A stretch of 64,000 bases of DNA. Origin: Oxynema aestuarii AP17. GTDB taxonomy: Bacteria > Cyanobacteriota > Cyanobacteriia > Cyanobacteriales > Laspinemataceae. Every line of letters begins with the position of its first letter. Position 1 is the stretch's first letter. Of this stretch, positions 21,107-34,175 are shown one piece after another. The notes under the pieces are model-generated. The model was not told the DNA's origin, made no database searches, and was given only the letters and a program-made list of their open reading frames with translations. The stretch covers positions 6,191,299 through 6,255,298 of the forward strand of contig NZ_CP051167.1 in assembly GCF_012295525.1 (NCBI RefSeq), read 5' to 3'. The translations under genes were made by a program, and so were the position numbers.

Positions 21107-22129
21107 TCAGCGATCGCGTAAAAATTCGGCGATCGCGCCGAGGGGTAAGATGCGGCGGGCGGCGTCGATTTCGGCGGCGGCTTTGGGCATTCCGTAGACG
21201 ACACAATCTTCTCGGGATTGGGCGATCGTGTACCAACCGCGATCGCGCAGTTGTTTTAAACCCTCGGCCCCGTCTCGACCCATTCCCGTCAGCAAAATTC
21301 CCACTCCCATCGCGGGCCAATGTTGAGCGAGACTGGCGAACAATACGTCCGCCGAGGGACAGTAAGGACAATTGAGGGGTTCGCGACGGTAGTTTAGGGT
21401 CAGGTCGGCGCCGACGATCGCGTGTTTGGGCTGCCCCGCAATGTAGACTTTACCCGGTTCGATCGCCTGTCCGGACTTCAGCATGACGACGGTCAACGGG
21501 GTGCGATCGTCTAACCAGCGAATTAGTCCCGGGGCGAATTGTGCCTCGATATGCTGGACGACGACGATCGCCGCGCGAAATGTTTTGGGTAATTGTGAGA
21601 GGATCGTGGAGATCGCCTGGGGACCTCCGGTAGAGGCGGCGATCGCGACTAGAGGCGGCAGCAGATCGGAACGAACGACCGTTGCGCGGCTTCTTCCCGT
21701 CCCCGGACGGGCGATCTCGCAAGCACTCGGCATTTTTCCTAGCAGTTTGGCGATCGTGGCGATTTTCTCCAACAGGGCGATCGCGCCGGGAGAATCTTCC
21801 GAGGTCGCCAAACTTGGCATTTTGACCACGTCGAGCGCCCCGTGACCCATCGCCGCAAACACTTGTGAGACATTCGTGTCGATACTCGCCGTAACGATTA
21901 ATACCGCACAAGAAAACTGCCGGACGATTTGCGCCGTCGCCTCTACCCCATTGAGGACGGGCATCTGCAAATCCATTAAAATCAAATCCGGTCGCTTTTG
22001 CGAACATTTCGCGACCGCCTCCGATCCGTTGCCAGCAATCCAAATAATTTCATAGTGTGGTACTTTACCCACAATGCGGCGTAAGGCTTCTACCGCTAGC
22101 ACCATATCGTTGACGATCGCTATTTTCAT
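21107..22129 (-). CDS. wspF: WspF-like CheB methylesterase with receiver domain
   Basis: A 340-residue CheB. The receiver domain has VNDMVLAVEALRRI, typical of the WspF branch, and phosphoacceptor Asp53 (LMDLQMP). The methylesterase domain has Ser166 (AIAASTGGP), His193 (VVQHI) and the acidic residue in GMGRDGAEG near residue 285. It removes methyl groups from the Wsp receptor and provides adaptation when phosphorylated by the WspE kinase. It is last in the chemosensory operon, but 415 bases of repeat-rich sequence separate it from wspE, so it may have its own promoter. Confidence 0.9.
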   Translation of the reverse strand: MKIAIVNDMVLAVEALRRIVGKVPHYEIIWIAGNGSEAVAKCSQKRPDLILMDLQMPVLNGVEATAQIVRQFSCAVLIVTASIDTNVSQVFAAMGHGALDVVKMPSLATSEDSPGAIALLEKIATIAKLLGKMPSACEIARPGTGRSRATVVRSDLLPPLVAIAASTGGPQAISTILSQLPKTFRAAIVVVQHIEAQFAPGLIRWLDDRTPLTVVMLKSGQAIEPGKVYIAGQPKHAIVGADLTLNYRREPLNCPYCPSADVLFASLAQHWPAMGVGILLTGMGRDGAEGLKQLRDRGWYTIAQSREDCVVYGMPKAAAEIDAARRILPLGAIAEFLRDR

Positions 22130-22346
22130 TGACTGGAAAGGACGGGGCGATCGTTATTGTAGTCGAGGGAGTGAGAAGAGAGTAGGGTCGTCTCTCCCGA
22201 TTCCCCATTCCCAATTCCCTCGGAGACTGTTTATAAAATAAACATCAACAGCCCGGTTTGAGAGGAGGCAATTGCCGGGACATCAAACGATAGATGGCTG
22301 CCTTCTCGTTACCCCAACTCTCTCGAAGTTTCTCTTGTGTCCTGTA

Positions 22347-22373
22347 GGGGTTTGGTGACCAAACCCCTACTAC
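22347..22373. repeat. 27-bp palindromic REP-like element
   Basis: A perfect 13-bp inverted repeat around a single central base (GTAGGGGTTTGGT-G-ACCAAACCCCTAC). It belongs to the same style of dispersed intergenic palindrome as 5141-5280 and 50211-50234. Confidence 0.9.
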
Positions 22374-22403
22374 AGCAGTTTTCGCTGTTGGGCGGTACAT
22401 TTC

Positions 22404-22466
22404 GATCCCCCTAAATCCCCCTTTCAAAGGGGGATTTAGGGGGATTTTTAAGGGGGGTTGGGGGGA
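22404..22466. repeat. Long palindrome of the CCCCCTAAATCCCCC type
   Basis: The left arm ATCCCCCTAAATCCCCCTTT is mirrored exactly after a single base, followed by AAGGGGGGTTGGGGGGAT. It shares blocks with the element at 8056-8117. It lies between wspE and wspF on an otherwise tightly packed operon. Confidence 0.9.
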
Positions 22467-22544
22467 TATTTGCCTCTTGTCCCCCATGACCGCGCCAATT
22501 GCTGTAATTTTTTTTAATATTTTCTCGATCGACCATCTCTAAAT

Positions 22545-24845
22545 CTAAAATCTCTCTTCCCCCGATCCTCCAATCGTGTCGATGACGGCATTAACAAAAG
22601 TGTTGTCGTGAAAACTGCTTTTAGTTAAATAATAATTGGCGCCGACTTCCAAACCTAAAAGCCGATCTTCTTCTCGTTCCTTATACGAAACAATAATTAC
22701 CGGGATCGATTGAATTTGAGGATGGGATTTCATTTGTGAAACTAATTCAATGCCATTCATGCGGGGCATATCGACATCGGTAATCACTAAATCGTAAGCC
22801 TCTGAGATTAGGGCATTCCAGGCATCGACGCCGTTGACGGCGACATCGACGCGATAACCGCGATTTTCTAATAGTTTGCGTTCCATTTCGCGAACGGTAA
22901 TCGAATCGTCAACGACTAAAATATGTTTGCAAACAGATTCGGCAATCGTTGACGGTTCGCGGTTGAAACTATTGAATTCTCCGCTAGCGAGTACTCCGCT
23001 AGCGAGTAAGGTTTCGATGGAGCGTAATAAATCTTCGACATCGACAATTAAGAGGGGGGAACCGTCTTCCATTAAAGCGGCAGCACTGATATCGCGGATT
23101 TTGCCGAGGCGCGGATCGAGGGGTTTGACGACGATATCCCGTTCGCCGATCGCGCGATCGACGACTAAACCGTAAGTGTGGGATCCGGTGCCGATAGAAA
23201 TAACATCGAGTTCTTGCCGATTTGCGTGAGGGGCGATCGCACGATTCGAGTCCAATTCTAAAACGCGATCGGCGCCGATCAAACTAATATTTTGGCCGTT
23301 GAGATGGATATATTGCCGATTTTCAACCCAAGAAATCTCTGAGGGAGCAATCCGTAAAATACAGTTAATTCGGGTGAGGGGAAAAGCATAAGGTTCCCCG
23401 GCAATTTCGACAAGTAAAGTACGAATAACCGATAACGTTAACGGTAATTGAAACTGAAAACTCAAGCCGCCGTCGGGATTGGCAAAGGCTTTTAACGATC
23501 CGGAAACCTGTTGCACCATTGTTTTCGCCACGTCTAAACCGACGCCGCGACCGGAAATTTCCGTGACTTCTCGGGCGGAAGAAAAGCCGGGTAAAAATAG
23601 AAATTCGATCAGTTCGTTTTCGCTTAACTGGCGCGACATTTCCGGGGTGACCAGTTCTTTTTCGACGATACTGCGGCGCAATTGCTCGAAATCGAGACCG
23701 CGTCCGTCGTCGGAGACGAGGATCGAGAGCATTCCGGCGCGATGGGTGGCTTCGAGGCGAATCCGTCCTTCGGGGGTTTTCCCTTTTGCCAACCGTTCCT
23801 CCGGCGGTTCGATCCCGTGGTCGATCGCGTTGCGAAGCAGTTGGGTTAAGGGAGCTTGCAGTTTGTCGAGGATATCGCGATCGATGGGGGTGGATTGACC
23901 GATAATGTCTAATTTGACTTGTTTGCCGAGATCTTTGGCTAAATCGCGGACGGCGCGGGGAAAATTGGCGGTTCCTTCGCGAAAGGGACGCATTTGGGCG
24001 GCGATCGCCTCGCGGTAAAGTCGATCGCACAGGCTGGAAAAGCGACCGGAGAAGCGATCGAGTTCTTCGAGGCGATCGTTTAAGGTGTCGCTGCACTGGT
24101 GGGCTTGTTCTCGGGCGCTGACGAGGGCTTCGCGGTTGATGCCCCCGTGACGATCGCGATCGCAGCTTGTCTCTAATTGCTCTAACAGTTGGCACAGTTC
24201 GAGTTGGCGGGTTTTCAGTTGCAGTAGAGAGTTGGCAAAGGGCTGCAGCCAGTTGGACTCGATCAGGGATTCTCCCGCCAATCCCATCAAGCGGTTGAGA
24301 TTGTCCGCACTCAAGCGCACGACCCGTTCCCCCGTCGCCGTCGCGGAATCGTTGGTTGGCTTCGTTTCGACGGTTTCAGCGTCGATCGCGCCCCCTGGGG
24401 TGCTTTCTGGCGGGGCGATCGCCGCTTCCGACTCGTTCAAAATTGCGGCAATTTGCGCTTCTTGTCGTTCGATCTCTCCCTGACGGTCCGCCAACCAGCG
24501 ATCGAACTCGTTTTCGTCCACCTGACTCATGGCGAGCAACAAATCGCCCCCCGCGAGGAGGCGATCGATCGCTGCCGAATCGAGGGCGATCTGTCCTTTC
24601 TGTACGGCGACGAGGCAATCTTCTAGGACGTGGGCGATTCGCACCGCCGGATCGACTTGCACGATCCGGGCTGCCCCTTTGATCGAATGGGCCGCCCGGG
24701 CGATCGCGGCGAGGGCTTCGCGATTTTCGTCTAATTCTTCTAGTTTTAAAAGATTTTCCGTTAAAACCTGCACTTGGGTCTCGACTTCCATGCGAAATAA
24801 ATCGCGCATGGACATCTGGCTCAAATCTCGGTTCTGTTCGCTCAT
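22545..24845 (-). CDS. wspE: WspE-like hybrid CheA kinase (Hpt-HATPase-CheW-REC)
   Basis: A 766-residue chemotaxis kinase. It opens with MSMRDLFRMEVETQ, then an Hpt domain with His53 (RAAHSIKGAAR), dimerisation and ATPase domains (LLRNAIDHGIEPPEER, DDGRGLD, GRGVGLDV), a CheW-like regulatory domain, and a C-terminal receiver (VVDDSITVRE; Asp in LVITDVDMP). This Hpt-to-receiver fusion is the WspE layout. It should phosphorylate WspF and an output regulator in response to the WspA receptor. Its ATG overlaps the WspD stop in an ATGA, so translation is coupled. Confidence 0.93.
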   Translation of the reverse strand: MSEQNRDLSQMSMRDLFRMEVETQVQVLTENLLKLEELDENREALAAIARAAHSIKGAARIVQVDPAVRIAHVLEDCLVAVQKGQIALDSAAIDRLLAGGDLLLAMSQVDENEFDRWLADRQGEIERQEAQIAAILNESEAAIAPPESTPGGAIDAETVETKPTNDSATATGERVVRLSADNLNRLMGLAGESLIESNWLQPFANSLLQLKTRQLELCQLLEQLETSCDRDRHGGINREALVSAREQAHQCSDTLNDRLEELDRFSGRFSSLCDRLYREAIAAQMRPFREGTANFPRAVRDLAKDLGKQVKLDIIGQSTPIDRDILDKLQAPLTQLLRNAIDHGIEPPEERLAKGKTPEGRIRLEATHRAGMLSILVSDDGRGLDFEQLRRSIVEKELVTPEMSRQLSENELIEFLFLPGFSSAREVTEISGRGVGLDVAKTMVQQVSGSLKAFANPDGGLSFQFQLPLTLSVIRTLLVEIAGEPYAFPLTRINCILRIAPSEISWVENRQYIHLNGQNISLIGADRVLELDSNRAIAPHANRQELDVISIGTGSHTYGLVVDRAIGERDIVVKPLDPRLGKIRDISAAALMEDGSPLLIVDVEDLLRSIETLLASGVLASGEFNSFNREPSTIAESVCKHILVVDDSITVREMERKLLENRGYRVDVAVNGVDAWNALISEAYDLVITDVDMPRMNGIELVSQMKSHPQIQSIPVIIVSYKEREEDRLLGLEVGANYYLTKSSFHDNTFVNAVIDTIGGSGEERF

Positions 24846-25573
24846 AGCATTCTGTGGGCGATCGCTTCAAATAAGAGGCGATCGTCTAAATAATTGACTT
24901 TGCGATCGTGCCAGTTGACGATCGCCCGGGTGTAACTGTGGCTGGCGCAGGCGATCGCGGCGGGGGTGGTTTCCAATTGAACGGCGCAGGTGCGATGAAT
25001 CCCGTAAATTTCATCGACGGGAAACACCCACAAGCCGCGATCGCTCTCGACGACGACCAAACGCGGATAAATCGCCAACCCTTCGCGATCGGAGATCTCG
25101 CAAGAGTGCAACTGCAACACGGCGTTGAGGGACACACACGGCAGCAATTCACCGCGAATGTTGACCAACCCTAAAAATAAGTCGTCGCTGCGGTGGGGAA
25201 CCGTGCGGATCGTTCGGGGAGTGGCGATTTCGTGCAGTAACTCGGCCCGCAATGCCAGCCATTCCCCCCCCAACCGGAAAATCGCGATTCTGCTTGGCAG
25301 AGGCACTCCCGTCGCCCCGATCGCCGTATCCCGTTCCTCTGGCGCGACGGTCGGCGCCTGTTCTTCCGTCGATCTTGGTTCTGACTCAGATTGCCACCCT
25401 TCCCCCGCCAGCGATCGCGTCCACTCCTCAACATAGTCATCCGCAGGCGGGCGATCGAACAGTTGGCGCCCCCCTTGTGAATAAATGGGGCAGTTATGGC
25501 AGTGAATGACGCGATCGAGTTCTTGACACGAGCGATCGCCATCGATACCAATTATTTTCCAGCAATTCTCCAT
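24842..25573 (-). CDS. wspD: WspD-like CheW adaptor with Cys-rich N-terminus
   Basis: A 243-residue CheW-family scaffold. The N-terminus CWKIIGIDGDRSCQELDRV followed by CHNCPIY is the signature extension of WspD: four conserved Cys residues, possibly metal-binding. The CheW domain runs from about residue 95 to the end (FRLGGEWLALRAELLHEI; LVNIRGELLPCVSL). It links the WspA receptor to the WspE kinase. The stop overlaps the wspE start by four bases (ATGA). Confidence 0.9.
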   Translation of the reverse strand: MENCWKIIGIDGDRSCQELDRVIHCHNCPIYSQGGRQLFDRPPADDYVEEWTRSLAGEGWQSESEPRSTEEQAPTVAPEERDTAIGATGVPLPSRIAIFRLGGEWLALRAELLHEIATPRTIRTVPHRSDDLFLGLVNIRGELLPCVSLNAVLQLHSCEISDREGLAIYPRLVVVESDRGLWVFPVDEIYGIHRTCAVQLETTPAAIACASHSYTRAIVNWHDRKVNYLDDRLLFEAIAHRML

Positions 25574-25663
25574 GAAGGGATTTTAGAGTTTTTTAGAGTT
25601 TTTTAGATTGAGGGAATTGGGAACGACCCGCCTACTCCCTACTTTTCGTTCCCCCTTCCCCCT

Positions 25664-27421
25664 TCACCCCGACAACTTAAACCGCGCGATCTCCCCTTGC
25701 AAACCTCGCGCCGCATCGTTCAACTGTTCGATCGCCCGATTCGTATCGCTCAATGCTTGGGCCGTTTGACCGGACGCTTCGCTTAACTGCACCATTGCCG
25801 CACTGATTTGACGGGCGCCTTCCGACTGTCCCTCCATTCCTTGACTGACCGATTCAAAACGGGGGGTCAAACTTTGCACTCGTTCGATAATTTCGCTCAT
25901 TTGGGCGCCGATGACTTGGATATTTTCCACGGCCCGGGCGACTTCTTTGGTGAATTTATCCATTTCCATCACACCCGTGGAAACGGCGGATTGCATATCT
26001 TTAACCATTTGCTCGATATCGAGGGTGGCGATCGCCGTACTGTCCGCCAGACGACGAATTTCGCGGGCGACCACGGCAAAACCACTGCCGTATTCTCCTG
26101 CTTTTTCCGCTTCGATCGCCGCGTTGAGGGAGAGCAAGTTCGTGCGATCGGCCACTTTAGTAATGGTCGTTACAATCCCGTCGATCCGATTGGCTTTTTC
26201 GCCGATCGCGCCGAGTTTGGCGGCGATCGAACTGGTTCCTTGCGAAAGTTGTCGCATCGTTTCTTCCATTCCCAATAAGTCTTGCTGACCGTTTCCGGCG
26301 GCGATCGTGGTTTGATGCGAAAGTTCTTTCACTTGTTCCATGGTCACGACTAATTCCGAGGCGGTGGCTGCAATTTGTTTCGCCGTGGCAACGACTTGAT
26401 TGGTCGAAGCAACTTGTTGAGTGACCGTAGCTTCTAACTGTTTCCCCGAGGCGGCGATTTGAGTAGTAGAACTGGTAATTTGAATCCCGGAATGTTGGAC
26501 TTGTCGGATCAGAGAATTGAGTTTGCGCGTCATGTTATAAAATGCACTTTGCAATCTGCCGATTTCGTCGGGAGAATCACTCACTCGTACTGATGTTGTC
26601 AAATCTCCTTCGGCAATTCTTTCGGCCACTCTGACAATGCTAATAATTTTATTGCCGAGGGGTTTGGCGATCGTCCGACTGAAATACCAGCCTAAAATTA
26701 TGGCCGTGAGCGGTCCGATCAGCATCCCGAGAACTGCCCAAGACCGGGTTTGTGCGATCTCTGCGCTGGCATCTTCACTGACTTGTTCGACTAAATCTTC
26801 GTTGAGCGATAAAATGTTGTCCAAAATTTCTTCAGTTTTATGAAACGCGGGTTCGACTTCATCGATATGAAATTGATTCAAGCGATCGAGTACTTCATTG
26901 GCTGCTCGCAATTTCACCATTTCCGGAGAATTTTCTTGGTTATTGGCAATCAGTTCGGCGATTTTCAATCCCGGCGCTCTGGGTAACCCGTAAGCTTGAT
27001 ATTCTTCATGAATTTCAAGAAACTGTCGGTCGGCGTTTTTCCACTGTTGCAAAACGAGCAGGAAATCTTGAAAAATTTCTTGTTGTCTTTCGGGGATTTC
27101 TAAGTTTTGGTATTGTTCCAATCCTTCATTAATTTGTTGGTAAGCCCGTTCGATCCGGTCTAATTCTTCTTTGCGGATGGCTGCATCGAGTCGCGGATTG
27201 GTGAGGTTTCTTTCTGAGGATTGAATTTGGGTTTGTCCTTCGTTGACTTTCCATAAGGATAAAACGGCGGGCGAGGCGGTATCGGTGAGCAAACTGAGGC
27301 GATCGCTCAACCGATGGTTACCCATCCAACCGAATAAGGCAACGATGAAAATAATCAATCCCATAAATGTAAATGCTGCAATCATTCTCGATTGCAAAGA
27401 CATTCGTTCCAACATATTCAT
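25664..27421 (-). CDS. wspA: WspA-like methyl-accepting chemoreceptor
   Basis: A 585-residue receptor. There are two transmembrane helices (about 13-33 and 229-248) flanking a four-helix-bundle periplasmic domain, then a HAMP domain (SRTIAKPLGNKI...RVAERIAEGDL) and a long signalling coiled coil. The hairpin tip reads RTNLLSLNAAIEAEKAGEYG, followed by GFAVVAREIRRLADSTAIAT. The tip and the following DIEQMVKDMQSAVSTGVMEM segment are typical of WspA. In Pseudomonas WspA responds to surface contact or envelope stress. Gaps of 90 bases to wspD and 328 bases to the upstream wspC mean it may also be transcribed from its own promoter. Confidence 0.9.
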   Translation of the reverse strand: MNMLERMSLQSRMIAAFTFMGLIIFIVALFGWMGNHRLSDRLSLLTDTASPAVLSLWKVNEGQTQIQSSERNLTNPRLDAAIRKEELDRIERAYQQINEGLEQYQNLEIPERQQEIFQDFLLVLQQWKNADRQFLEIHEEYQAYGLPRAPGLKIAELIANNQENSPEMVKLRAANEVLDRLNQFHIDEVEPAFHKTEEILDNILSLNEDLVEQVSEDASAEIAQTRSWAVLGMLIGPLTAIILGWYFSRTIAKPLGNKIISIVRVAERIAEGDLTTSVRVSDSPDEIGRLQSAFYNMTRKLNSLIRQVQHSGIQITSSTTQIAASGKQLEATVTQQVASTNQVVATAKQIAATASELVVTMEQVKELSHQTTIAAGNGQQDLLGMEETMRQLSQGTSSIAAKLGAIGEKANRIDGIVTTITKVADRTNLLSLNAAIEAEKAGEYGSGFAVVAREIRRLADSTAIATLDIEQMVKDMQSAVSTGVMEMDKFTKEVARAVENIQVIGAQMSEIIERVQSLTPRFESVSQGMEGQSEGARQISAAMVQLSEASGQTAQALSDTNRAIEQLNDAARGLQGEIARFKLSG

Positions 27422-27749
27422 TGGCAGAAATAATTTGAAGACAAATAAAAATTACAGCCTCCAAAATGGAGGATGGCTTGGCTTGAGCGTCGGCGTGCGA
27501 TCGCACCCCTGTAAACCAGCGATGGGCTAAATTACCGATCGCAGCCATTGACGCAACAGTCAGTTTCCCGAGGAACGGCGATCGCCCATCAGAATATTAC
27601 CTTTCCCTTACTCAATCAAATCCCTCTACTTGGCAATTTTCGATCTTAGCAATTCACCCAGAAATAAAAACTGCGATCCCTTCAGTGCTTTCACGGAAAC
27701 GATCTCGTGAGAATACACCTTATCGTTTTGAGAAAGTTAATGATTTTAC
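27422..27749. other. Gap inside the Wsp-type operon, upstream of wspA
   Basis: 328 bases with no supported gene. It contains a small 6-bp hairpin at 27458-27472 (CCTCCA-AAA-TGGAGG) and AT-rich stretches. An internal promoter for wspA on the minus strand is likely but not demonstrated. Confidence 0.45.
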
Positions 27750-28994
27750 TTAAGATTCTAGCAATCGATCGATTCTTTGACGCAATAACATTGCTTTACG
27801 AACATTTCCCCGTTTTTCCGCCAAAAGCTTTAAGTGAACGAGGGCTTCGTAGGAGTGCGGCGATAGATAAAGCGCTTTCTCAAAACAGCGTTCTGCCTCG
27901 TCTTCGCATCGTCGGGAGGTATGAATTTCGCCGCAGAGTAGGTAAGCTTCGGCACTGGTCGGCTCTTGTTTTAAGTAGCTCAAGCACAAATTGAGAGCGG
28001 TTTCTAAGTCTCCCGCATTGGCAAGATCGCGAATGCTCGATAGGGACTGGGGTTGAGGTTTGGGGAGGTTCGACGAGGGGGGACGGGTGAAGCGATCGCC
28101 CGATTTTAGCGGGGCTGAGGGGCGCCGTGGCGGGGTCGCCTGCGAACGCGCGGTTGTCGTTGGTGGCGGTGGTTTGACGTCGTGGCGGTCTACTCGGCGA
28201 TACGCGAAGCACAAGGGTTCGCGAAGGGGGGCGAAACGAGGGGCGTGACTGGAGACGATCGCCGTTTCCGACGAACCGACGAATAACAGCCCTTCCGGTA
28301 AGGTGAGCGCTTCTAAAACCTGTAGTAGGCGAAGACGGGCACTTTGATGGAGATAAATCAGTAAATTGCGGCAGAAAATAACGTGATAAGGGGTTTGACG
28401 GTATTGAAATAAAGGTTCGAGGGGATTACTTCGGTAAAATTGCACCCGATCGCCGATCGCCGCCGCCAGTTGGTAGCCGTCGGCGGTTTTTTCAAAGTAA
28501 CGATCGCGCAGGTCGAAGGACTGACCGCGAAAGGCGCGATCGCTGTAAGTCCTTCGGCGCGCCCGATCGATCGCCCCTTGACTCAGATCGATCGCCTCGA
28601 TCGTAAAACGTTCTCGACTCAACCCCGCTTCGCATAAAGCGATCGCGATCGAGTAGGGTTCTTCTCCGGTGGAACAGGGTAAGCTGAGCAGCCGCAAAGC
28701 TTCCCCGGACGGGCGATCGCGCCATTGCCTGCGGGCGTAGTGTTGGAGACCGTCGAAGGCGTGGCGATCGCGGAAAAACCAGGTTTCCGGAACCACCAGC
28801 AGTTCGATCAAGGCTTGCCATTCCTGGCGCGAATGTTGCAACTGTTGCCAGTAGGTCGGCAGATCGGCGATCGCGCCGTCGCGCATCCGTCGGGCGATCG
28901 CGCGATCGAGGCTGGTATCGCCCAAGGTGGCGAGATCCCAACCGAGTTGTTGACCGAGTAATGCGGCGACGCGATCGCGGATCGAAGCGCTCAT
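27750..28994 (-). CDS. wspC: WspC-like CheR methyltransferase with C-terminal TPR
   Basis: About 414 residues from the ATG at 28994, chosen because it overlaps the wspB stop (ATGA) and starts at the CheR helical domain (MSASIRDRVAALLGQQ); longer starts would run through wspB. The SAM-binding site shows LPCSTGEEPYSIAIAL, with FCRNLLIYL further on. A Pro-rich linker leads to a TPR-like helical region (residues about 320-410). It methylates glutamates of the WspA receptor using S-adenosylmethionine. CheR with a TPR tail is the WspC layout. Confidence 0.92.
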   Translation of the reverse strand: MSASIRDRVAALLGQQLGWDLATLGDTSLDRAIARRMRDGAIADLPTYWQQLQHSRQEWQALIELLVVPETWFFRDRHAFDGLQHYARRQWRDRPSGEALRLLSLPCSTGEEPYSIAIALCEAGLSRERFTIEAIDLSQGAIDRARRRTYSDRAFRGQSFDLRDRYFEKTADGYQLAAAIGDRVQFYRSNPLEPLFQYRQTPYHVIFCRNLLIYLHQSARLRLLQVLEALTLPEGLLFVGSSETAIVSSHAPRFAPLREPLCFAYRRVDRHDVKPPPPTTTARSQATPPRRPSAPLKSGDRFTRPPSSNLPKPQPQSLSSIRDLANAGDLETALNLCLSYLKQEPTSAEAYLLCGEIHTSRRCEDEAERCFEKALYLSPHSYEALVHLKLLAEKRGNVRKAMLLRQRIDRLLES

Positions 28995-29452
28995 CGGTTC
29001 GAGTCGTCGAACAGGGCTGCGATCGCCGGATCGCACAACAGGCGATCGACCCTCAACGGTCGCACCGTACCGCGATCGCACAGGATCGTCTGTTCCAGAT
29101 ACGGCACCTGTTCCAGGTGAATCGGGCGATCGACCCATCGGGCCTCTTTCGGAACGGACCAGGTTTCCGTCACTTTGGGGGCGATCGCCCCTAACAGGCG
29201 TCCCCGGGTCGAAGGGGATTCGACCTCCAGCACGATCGTCCGACTGCTGTATGCTACCGGGGTAGGCGTTCCTTGCAACAATTGCGCCAGATCGAGCACG
29301 GCCACGATCGTACCGCGATAGTTGAACGATCCGGCCACGAATTCGGGGGCTTGGTGAATCTTACTCACGTTGACTCTCGGAATCACTTCCACCACCGAGG
29401 CGCAGTCGATCCCGTACTGCTCGCCACCCACCCGGAAGAGTAACAGCATCAT
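28991..29452 (-). CDS. wspB: WspB-like CheW adaptor
   Basis: A CheW-domain protein of about 153 residues beginning MMLLLFRVGGEQYGID. The start at 29452 shares one base with the stop of the small upstream gene (TGATG), which indicates translational coupling; the adjacent ATG at 29449 is equally possible. The core has FVAGSFNYRGTIVAVLDLAQLL. It should scaffold the WspA-WspE complex. The stop overlaps the wspC ATG. Confidence 0.88.
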   Translation of the reverse strand: MMLLLFRVGGEQYGIDCASVVEVIPRVNVSKIHQAPEFVAGSFNYRGTIVAVLDLAQLLQGTPTPVAYSSRTIVLEVESPSTRGRLLGAIAPKVTETWSVPKEARWVDRPIHLEQVPYLEQTILCDRGTVRPLRVDRLLCDPAIAALFDDSNR

Positions 29453-29706
29453 CAGGATTGTTCTTCTTTTTCTTTGAGCAGTAATTCTTCTTTTGAATCC
29501 GACCAATAGGCGCTATAAGTCCACGTTTCTCGCCCGTTTTTCTGTTCTACCGACCATCGGAAAATTGCCGCCTTGGGATCGACGCCTACTTCAATTAATT
29601 TCGCTCCCATATAATATTCCATTTGCCGTTTTTTCATGTCTTTAAACCCGGAAGCGCGGTTGCTTTCCCAAGATTGAGACATGTGTGCTTGGGTTGGTCT
29701 CGCCAT
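29452..29706 (-). CDS. Small hypothetical protein coupled to the Wsp-type operon
   Basis: An 84-residue soluble, highly charged protein; I recognise no family. It has a YYMGAKLIEVGVDPKAAIFRW core with several aromatic residues and an acidic C-terminal tail (LLLKEKEEQS). The stop codon shares one base with the wspB start, so it is probably the first gene of the chemosensory operon and real. Its job may be linked to Wsp signalling, but this is only inferred from position. Confidence 0.65.
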   Translation of the reverse strand: MARPTQAHMSQSWESNRASGFKDMKKRQMEYYMGAKLIEVGVDPKAAIFRWSVEQKNGRETWTYSAYWSDSKEELLLKEKEEQS

Positions 29707-32237: not shown

Positions 32238-34175
32238 ATGACTCGATGGTGGCGCGACTGGGATAAGATCGTCCCAGTACTATTCGCTCAAGCAGAAGTG
32301 ACCGTCACGCTTTCGAGTGTGGCGATCGCCATTTTGCTGTTACTCTCCGGCAAAATGGGTGCGTTACAATCTTTAGAATTAGTTATTTATGACTACTTAA
32401 TTCGCTGGCAAGGCGATCGCGGTTTTGACGATCGCGTGCTGGTAGTTGGGATTTCCGAAGCCGATATTAACTTTATTGAAAAATGGCCTCCATCCGATCG
32501 CGTTATCGCTCAACTTTTAAGGGAACTTCAGCGCTACGATCCGGCGGCGATCGGGTTGGATTTTATGCGCGATATTCCCTATTCTCCCGGTCATGAAGAA
32601 TTGGTTGCCGAACTAGCAAAACCTAATGTTTTTGGAATTCGTTATGTCGGTAACAATCCCAGCGAAAGCACTTCGCCACCGCCGAGTTTGCCGGGCGATC
32701 GCGTCGGCTTTAACGATGTAGTGACCGATCCCGATGGCGTGGTTCGCCGCACTTTAATGTTTACTTCCAACGGTCAACAAAATTTTCTTTCTTTATCCTT
32801 AAGATTGGCATTATTTTATTTGAAAAATTATAATATTACTCCAAAACTGAATGAAAAGAAAGTGTATCAACTCGGTCATGTTCCTTTAGAAAAACTCACT
32901 CAAACCTGGGGTGGTTATCAAACGATCGATCCGGGAGGCTATCAAATTTTACTGGACTATAGAGACCTCGATCCCGTTCCAGTGGTGTCAATGCAAGCCG
33001 TTCTCGAAGGGGCGATCGAACCGTCGGCGATCGCGGGTAAAATTATTTTAATCGGTCCGGTGGCTCCGAGTGTTAAAGATGTATTTTTAACGCCCTATAG
33101 CGCTACAGTCAACGGCAATCGGAAAATGCCGGGGGTCTTGATTCACGCCCAAATGGTCAGCCAATTTCTGAGTGCAGGTCTCGACGATCTCGCCCCCGTT
33201 TCGAGTTGGCCCGAACCTGTCGAATGGGTGTGGATTTTGGCCGCTTGTTTGTTAGGCGGAGCGATCGGTTTAAAAGTTAGTAACCCTTGGCGGTTGACCG
33301 CCAGCGCGATCGCCCTAGGATGCGTTTTTTTTGCCTTCGGTTTGTTGTGCTTTCTACAGAGAATTTGGATTCCGATTGCCACCCCGATCGTCGGGGCATT
33401 GTCCGCCGGGGCGATCGCCGTAATTTATCAACTCCAACAAGCACGAAAGCAGCAAAAAATGGTCATGAATTTACTGGGACAACAAACTTCTCCCGAGATT
33501 GCTTCGGCCCTGTGGGACCGGCGCGATCGCTTGTTAAAAGCCGGAGTTTTACCGGGAGAAACGGTCACAGTTACGGTGTTTTTTAGCGATATTAAAAACT
33601 TTACGACCATCTCGGAACAACTCCCCTCAGAAAAGTTAATGGTTTGGCTCAATGAATATCTCGACGCCATGACCGATATCGTCATCGACCATCAAGGTAT
33701 TATTAATAAGTTTATTGGCGATGCGATTATGGCCGTTTTTGGCGTTCCAATTCCGCGAACGACCGAAGCGGAAATTAGCGAAGACGCGAGGCGATCGGTA
33801 CGTTGTAGTTTGGCGATGCGCGAACGCTTACAACAGCTAAATTCCAGTTGGAAAGAGCGCGGTTTTCCCATCATTCAAATCCGGGCGGGAATTTTCACCG
33901 GTCCAGTTACCGTTGGCAGTTTAGGCGGCAAGAAACGATTAGAATATGGAATTATTGGCGATAGTGTCAATATTGCTTCTCGCCTGGAAAGTTCGTTTAA
34001 AGATCGTCAAGTTGATAATTGCCGTATTTTAATTTCTGGAGAAACTTATCATCGCTTAAAAAGTGAAATTGAGGTCGAATCCTGGGGGGCAATGAATCTG
34101 AAAGGAAAAGAAAAAGAAGTTGAGGTTTATCGAGTCATCGGGCATAAAATAGAGCGCCTATCAGAGGAGCCGTAA
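32238..34175 (+). CDS. CHASE2-domain adenylate cyclase (class III)
   Basis: A 645-residue receptor cyclase. One N-terminal helix (about 20-40) precedes a CHASE2 sensor (VLVVGISEADINFIEKWPPSD, AAIGLDFMRDIPY, IILIGPVAPSVKD). Three helices (about 330-400) follow, then a class III cyclase domain with metal-binding Asp residues in FFSDIKNF and INKFIGDAIMAVFG and transition-state NIASRLES. The Lys in NKFIGD and the Asp in IIGDSVN specify adenine, so the product is probably cAMP. It is followed by a DUF928 gene 116 bases on, the same partner family found with the CHASE2 kinase at 9470. Confidence 0.92.
   Translation: MTRWWRDWDKIVPVLFAQAEVTVTLSSVAIAILLLLSGKMGALQSLELVIYDYLIRWQGDRGFDDRVLVVGISEADINFIEKWPPSDRVIAQLLRELQRYDPAAIGLDFMRDIPYSPGHEELVAELAKPNVFGIRYVGNNPSESTSPPPSLPGDRVGFNDVVTDPDGVVRRTLMFTSNGQQNFLSLSLRLALFYLKNYNITPKLNEKKVYQLGHVPLEKLTQTWGGYQTIDPGGYQILLDYRDLDPVPVVSMQAVLEGAIEPSAIAGKIILIGPVAPSVKDVFLTPYSATVNGNRKMPGVLIHAQMVSQFLSAGLDDLAPVSSWPEPVEWVWILAACLLGGAIGLKVSNPWRLTASAIALGCVFFAFGLLCFLQRIWIPIATPIVGALSAGAIAVIYQLQQARKQQKMVMNLLGQQTSPEIASALWDRRDRLLKAGVLPGETVTVTVFFSDIKNFTTISEQLPSEKLMVWLNEYLDAMTDIVIDHQGIINKFIGDAIMAVFGVPIPRTTEAEISEDARRSVRCSLAMRERLQQLNSSWKERGFPIIQIRAGIFTGPVTVGSLGGKKRLEYGIIGDSVNIASRLESSFKDRQVDNCRILISGETYHRLKSEIEVESWGAMNLKGKEKEVEVYRVIGHKIERLSEEP

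Follow-up and report, generated by a model that had tools for sequence, protein, structure and literature searches.

The Wsp system is the textbook example of surface sensing through cyclic di-GMP (c-di-GMP). A survey from 2021 described it as exclusive to beta- and gammaproteobacteria and as having two outputs only (PMC8552884). A cassette with the gene order wspB-C-A-D-E-F (BCADEF) and without WspR is already known in cyanobacteria, as it was reported in 2016 for Phormidesmis priestleyi BC1401, where the gene of a class III cyclase occupies the position of wspR (PMC4971617). Here, we analysed a stretch of 64,000 nucleotides from the cyanobacterium Oxynema aestuarii AP17 (contig NZ_CP051167.1, positions 6,191,299 to 6,255,298; in the following, the window), which encodes a Wsp-type chemosensory operon at window positions 21107-29506. 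Judging from the sequence, the cognate regulator of this operon is quite probably not a WspR, but a distantly encoded protein composed of a receiver (REC), a HisKA and a HATPase_c domain, in the following termed REC-HK. The output of the operon would then most likely be a histidine-kinase phosphorelay (“WspH-like”), and neither c-di-GMP nor the neighbouring CHASE2 cyclase.

The features dealt with are listed below, with positions referring to the window unless contig C1 of the genome is named (ORF, open reading frame; TPR, tetratricopeptide repeat).

ORF 28991-29506, minus strand: wspB, stand-alone CheW coupling protein (Pfam CheW, 72.5 bits), likely start at ATG 29452
ORF 27750-29138, minus strand: wspC, CheR methyltransferase with C-terminal TPRs (Pfam CheR, 128 bits), likely start at ATG 28994
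25664-27421, minus strand: wspA, membrane chemoreceptor with 4HB_MCP_1, HAMP and MCPsignal domains (Pfam)
24842-25573, minus strand: wspD, CheW protein whose N-terminus carries the four-cysteine extension typical of WspD (Pfam CheW, 63 bits, and cysteine motif)
22545-24845, minus strand: wspE, hybrid CheA kinase Hpt-HATPase-CheW-REC (Pfam and WspE tree)
22130-22544, no strand: wspE-wspF gap of 415 bp with two perfect inverted repeats
21107-22129, minus strand: wspF, REC-CheB methylesterase (Pfam CheB_methylest, 192.5 bits; Response_reg, 58.9 bits)
32238-34175, plus strand: CHASE2-class III nucleotidyl cyclase near the operon (Pfam CHASE2, 218.8 bits; Guanylate_cyc, 96.6 bits; no Response_reg)
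C1:1639283-1640755 (= L154:9284-10756), minus strand, outside the window: REC-HisKA-HATPase_c protein of about 490 aa (REC-HK) with a Wsp-type receiver, HisKA and HATPase_c confirmed

The original prediction for this DNA had named six Wsp components (WspB, WspC, WspA, WspD, WspE and WspF) in the order B-C-A-D-E-F, and Pfam recovered all of them on the minus strand in exactly this order. Together, they provide the core domain set of a Wsp system, namely a HAMP-bearing MCP (WspA), two CheWs, a CheR-TPR protein, a CheA-REC hybrid and a CheB. The interval given for the block, 21107-29706, also holds apart from its 5' end, which was overshot by about 200 bp. WspD opens with the four-cysteine sequence CWKIIGIDGDRSCQELDRVIHCHNC, and this motif was present in 93 of 96 WspD proteins and in 0 of 86 WspB proteins, taken from a range of phyla and counted with a loosened cysteine pattern after a stricter one had missed true WspDs. 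WspF reached 408.5 bits against NF009206 (cut-off 342), while the NCBIfam search of the operon products yielded generic chemotaxis names only. In a tree of 89 kinase cores (quick search, with the Shimodaira-Hasegawa-like approximate likelihood ratio test, SH-aLRT, as single support measure), the window WspE falls inside the clade of all Wsp kinases, proteobacterial WspE included (SH-aLRT 100), and inside the cyanobacterial Wsp clade (98). Six other CheAs, four of the same genome, that of E. coli and one of a planctomycete, fall outside the Wsp clade, and a branch with a support of 100 stands between the window WspE and two long CheAs of the genome (2.54 and 3.21 Mb), which were counted as Pil-type on size and context. 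A grouping with Pil-type systems, which the prediction had named as the result that would speak against a Wsp identity, was not found in this tree.

The description of the gene order as altered did not stand, since BCA(A)DEF is the usual cyanobacterial pattern and was published in 2016 for Phormidesmis. The cyanobacterial loci that we read showed either BCA(A)DEF or BACADEF and in no case ABCDEF, while A-B-C-D-E-F dominates outside the cyanobacteria. By the synteny wspA-B-C-D-E-F used as criterion in PMC8552884, the window operon, being BCADEF, would not be counted. The predicted lack of WspR was borne out: no WspR-type receiver lies within the window and no receiver-GGDEF gene adjoins wspF.

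The regulator was traced by its receiver. A search for WspD in 386 cyanobacterial genomes found a full WspD in 28 of them, the Oxynema genome included, with six extra weak matches representing other CheWs. In the 30 neighbourhoods that were read, the gene following wspF usually encodes a response regulator with a cyclase, histidine kinase or SpoIIE/PP2C phosphatase output, and the receivers of these wsp-linked regulators are strikingly similar, sharing the stretches VLLIDDQ..IGEAVRR and GANDYLVKLPD.VELIARIRYHS. When the Oxynema receiver was compared with solved structures, WspR was found first (3bre, 143.9 bits; 3i5a, 139.5 bits), followed by PleD with 77.5 bits; by sequence similarity, the wsp-linked receiver is homologous to that of WspR. 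A receiver model built without the Oxynema genome was applied to plasmid records and to loci from a collection of 84,980 species, the latter being the best 80 of a receiver-based search, and it gave a clear separation: in the fetched loci, Wsp-type receivers reached 159-229 bits and all other receivers at most 54 bits. The 116 Wsp-type receivers collected are all joined to an enzymatic output (41 PP2C, 31 GGDEF, 23 class III cyclase and 21 histidine kinase, hybrids included); most of them are encoded directly after wspF, while others precede wspA or come from contigs on which no wsp genes are visible. Among the 386 cyanobacteria, 23 possess a Wsp-type receiver and all of these belong to the 28 with WspD, whereas none of the 358 others does (Fisher 1.6e-32, kinship ignored). 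On the WspE tree, parsimony requires at least 12 changes of output, eight of them in cyanobacteria; many forks of this tree are weak, and the numbers are minima.

In the single-contig Oxynema genome (100% complete), only one Wsp-type receiver was found, located at C1:1640282-1640647 on the minus strand within REC-HK. A genome search for a REC-GGDEF protein or another output had been recommended; what it revealed is REC-HK. Models built without the Oxynema genome gave this receiver 184-191 bits, and in a ranking of all receivers of the genome it reached 209.8 bits, the next best having 79.1, with a model that included the Oxynema receiver. On inspection, the acidic pair, the phospho-acceptor Asp, the Ser/Thr and the Lys of the receiver as well as the H-box of the kinase are all present. 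In a relative of the same family (genome G386, locus L367), the genes B-C-A-D-E-F are followed by a REC-HK gene about 750 bp after wspF. The Oxynema receiver groups with that of this wspF-linked REC-HK (80/93) and not with that of a second, unlinked REC-HK of G386; this grouping comes from a small careful receiver tree, a tree of all 116 receivers having had too few columns to place the Oxynema receiver. The single receiver in the genome and the operon-linked REC-HK of G386 together make a histidine-kinase output the most likely one. The idea that the output may lie elsewhere or be of a different kind thus stood up well, with the unlinked REC-HK as the most likely candidate.

Other members of the family offer a varied picture. 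Of its 14 genomes, 12 have WspD and 11 have the receiver, all 11 being among the 12. In G396, a REC-HK is also encoded away from the wsp genes, and this protein is the one most similar to the Oxynema REC-HK (60%). G229 (L134) has a receiver-cyclase in the place after wspF, and G395, an assembly of essentially one contig, retains only wspA-D-E and no Wsp-type receiver. These differences between G386, G396, G229 and G395 mean that the output differs and moves within one family.

Several observations weigh against REC-HK as the partner. In the Oxynema genome no wsp genes are found near REC-HK, which lies 1.78 Mb from the operon on a 6.36-Mb replicon, taken as circular for this measurement; the pairing therefore rests on homology and uniqueness. 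Among the 25 receivers found in the scan of 386 genomes, that of REC-HK diverges most (191 bits compared to 206-231 bits), and its grouping is modestly supported. Of the kinase module, the same genome contains dozens of paralogues at 55-70%, so only the receiver is diagnostic, and judging REC-HK by its kinase half proved useless. Finally, the receiver is not strictly required, since cyanobacteria exist with wsp genes and no detectable Wsp-type receiver. These are the five WspD genomes G193, G255 and G262 (variant operon), G278 (wspE interrupted) and G118, as well as G395 with only wspA-D-E.

Among the alternatives, an output through c-di-GMP survives best, though we consider it improbable. Here, WspE would phosphorylate a GGDEF protein, examples being the REC-GGDEF at 4694018 and the one encoded next to another CheA at 3249750. 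More than 30 GGDEF loci exist in the genome, some of them encoding proteins that have a receiver and resemble WspR in length, and Pseudanabaena sp. “Roaring Creek” encodes a Wsp-type receiver-GGDEF right after wspF (L216:9848-10990), a WspR-like output in a cyanobacterium. However, no GGDEF protein of the Oxynema genome carries a Wsp-type receiver: those at 4694018 and 3249750 scored 70.6 and 38.9 bits compared to 209.8 bits for REC-HK with the same model, which includes REC-HK (191 bits with an independent model). The GGDEF proteins of WspR length were rejected as output for their receivers, which are of the wrong type.

Slightly less probable still is an output through cyclic AMP or GMP, produced by the neighbouring CHASE2 cyclase or by an unlinked REC-cyclase (C1:102276). 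In the cyanobacterial loci that we read, few wsp-linked outputs are commoner than receiver-cyclase fusions, one of which is found in G229 from the same family, and in Phormidesmis a class III cyclase is found in the place of WspR (PMC4971617). Yet the CHASE2 cyclase, one of the nearby cyclases that the original prediction had considered as output, has no receiver according to Pfam and was dropped, while the cyclases linked to wsp genes in other genomes have a receiver fused to them. The receiver of 102276 is of another type, with 53.8 bits in the model that includes the REC-HK receiver and 50 bits in an independent one, with which it was the only other candidate regulator scored. Though the whole protein matches a wsp-linked REC-cyclase at 51%, its receiver is an ordinary one that does not match the signature, and it was rejected as the equivalent of WspR. 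The least probable alternative, a decaying or sink system without any dedicated output in which the C-terminal receiver of WspE itself and WspF would be the sole targets of the kinase, could draw on the inverted repeats in the wspE-wspF gap and on several cyanobacteria that keep wsp genes without the receiver, among them G278 with its interrupted wspE, but all six genes of the operon are open and encode the expected domains (Pfam), the genome keeps a Wsp-type receiver protein, and G386 keeps one in operon linkage.

The receptor WspA, the couplers WspB and WspD, the hybrid kinase WspE and the methylation pair WspC/WspF make up the Wsp-type array encoded by the operon. With REC-HK as the output, a signal at WspA would alter the autophosphorylation of WspE, which is predicted to pass its phosphate to the conserved Wsp-type receiver of REC-HK. 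The phosphorylated receiver would switch the attached histidine kinase, and the latter may hand on the signal to a further response regulator. WspF would act as a competing phosphate acceptor and reset the methylation of WspA against WspC, bringing about adaptation. As to the stimulus, surface or envelope perturbation is suggested only by analogy to Pseudomonas.

Within the block, wspB takes the first position, as in other cyanobacteria. The TPRs of WspC are weak, comprising aa 371-428 and staying under the Pfam cut-offs. Counted from its likely ATG at 28994, wspC overlaps with the wspB stop by 4 bp, the likely starts of both genes being internal ATGs of their ORFs, and wspD and wspE also overlap by 4 bp. 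Nevertheless, the block is not gapless, with 328 bp between wspC and wspA, 90 bp between wspA and wspD, and 415 bp between wspE and wspF. The inverted repeats in the last gap have arms of 20 bp (22405-22445) and 13 bp (22344-22370) with loops of 1 nt and, spanning 22344-22445, are possibly small mobile or REP-like (repetitive extragenic palindromic) elements. When the operon was scanned for promoters and terminators, the number of sites did not exceed that in shuffled sequence. HIP1 (GCGATCGC) occurs at 186 sites in the window compared to 3.4 expected, and this excess supports a cyanobacterial origin.

The Oxynema genome may encode a second chemosensory system, not of the Wsp type and with c-di-GMP as its output: at C1:3245057-3250235 (L137), a CheB-like gene and the gene of another chemosensory kinase are found close to a divergent REC-GGDEF gene, the receiver of which is an ordinary one.

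Four of the cyanobacterial genomes (G193, G255, G262 and G131) carry the Wsp variant B-A-C-A-D-E-F, which forms a single WspE clade (100). No Wsp-type receiver is adjacent to it; G131 has one elsewhere, with the gene set of a second wsp operon. Each of these loci includes one or two adjacent genes for membrane proteins of about 350 aa (L110:4064-6237, L112:12301-13362, L115:3734-4795 and L114:1812-3897). A profile of these proteins shows similarity to chains of GLIC and of the GABA-A receptor (best E 3.6e-7), which places them in the pentameric ligand-gated ion channel family. Among the 386 genomes, this channel subfamily (>560 bits) was found only in the four with the variant, the next channels having at most 215 bits; as the profile was built from the same proteins, high scores are expected, and it is the restriction to the variant genomes that constitutes the observation.

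Some loci showed further peculiarities. In Methylococcaceae and a relative (L171, L217 and L223), a PP2C and a GGDEF protein, both with Wsp-type receivers, are encoded on either side of a single wsp operon or after it, and in Deltaproteobacteria HyVt-30 (L157) a class III cyclase and a PP2C protein with such receivers accompany one operon, which suggests one kinase with two outputs. In the Verrucomicrobiota L187, L192, L175 and L178, a long hybrid histidine kinase encoded after wspF begins with the Wsp-type receiver; in L187, this protein is a REC-HK that contains additional receivers and an Hpt domain. The wsp genes are scattered in G143 (L118, L298, L327) and G105 (L123, L299, L328): wspD stands alone between sugar-epimerase-like and ABC ATPase-like genes, wspE lies elsewhere, and a receiver-PP2C gene and wspF share a third site. 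G278 (L126:10633-13456; L326:8671-10572) has a wsp operon and no Wsp-type receiver, and its wspE in L126 is split into frames of 672 and 286 aa, as if the system decayed with the loss of its output.

Homologous wsp operons were found here in cyanobacteria, alphaproteobacteria, deltaproteobacteria (as named), Planctomycetota, Verrucomicrobiota, Elusimicrobiota and others, and four classes of output enzymes stand behind one receiver that is recognisable from WspR to the cyanobacteria. We see about an even chance that Wsp is one pan-bacterial module in which the receptor-kinase core and the receiver are fixed and the output enzyme was swapped repeatedly, the Oxynema lineage having turned to a kinase phosphorelay via an unlinked partner and one cyanobacterial clade having lost the receiver and gained pentameric ligand-gated channels. 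The receiver alone can identify the partner of a Wsp operon even if both are unlinked, as in the present genome, and cyanobacteria with differing natural outputs on the same array offer a good system to study how a chemosensory kinase keeps its specificity as the response changes. Already known are the cyanobacterial cassette (PMC4971617), WspH (PMC8552884) and the varied outputs of ACF (alternative cellular function)/CheR-TPR systems (PMC3447774). A literature search, with most subscription journals outside its scope, found no work that uses a conserved Wsp-type receiver to join systems across phyla or to locate an output encoded apart from its operon, and no cyanobacterial Wsp operon described with a histidine kinase as output.

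In comparison with described systems, the operon belongs to the known class of ACF/CheR-TPR clusters, which has varied multidomain regulators with histidine kinase, GGDEF, phosphatase and mononucleotidyl cyclase outputs; the consulted part of the survey on these clusters does not single out a shared Wsp-type receiver by which unlinked partners are identified (PMC3447774). With Wsp/WspR of Pseudomonas, it has in common the six components, the Cys-rich WspD, the CheR-TPR, the hybrid CheA and the WspR-homologous receiver (143.9 bits to 3bre), but Pseudomonas shows the order A-B-C-D-E-F with a GGDEF output directly downstream, instead of B-C-A-D-E-F with an unlinked histidine kinase. Burkholderia WspH (PMC8552884) resembles REC-HK in that a Wsp-type receiver is fused to a histidine-kinase module and not to GGDEF, the receivers being 53% identical. 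However, WspH adjoins wspA on its 5' side, while REC-HK is unlinked, and the kinase parts share just 22% identity over 119 aa. Given this distance, the Oxynema system would not be an H-system by descent, but WspH-like in its logic, and the two fusions probably arose independently. The cassette of Phormidesmis priestleyi BC1401 (PMC4971617) agrees in its six genes, their order B-C-A-D-E-F and the lack of WspR in place; it has a class III adenylate cyclase at the WspR position and a gene for a cyclic nucleotide (cNMP)-binding protein upstream, whereas the window operon has no response regulator after wspF and an unlinked receiver-histidine kinase as candidate output. The same gene order along with a related REC-HK is found in G386 (L367) of the same family and in Laspinema sp. 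D2d (L159). In these Laspinema-type relatives, REC-HK directly follows wspF, and extra Wsp-type receivers are present elsewhere in the genome, in a long hybrid kinase and a second REC-HK.

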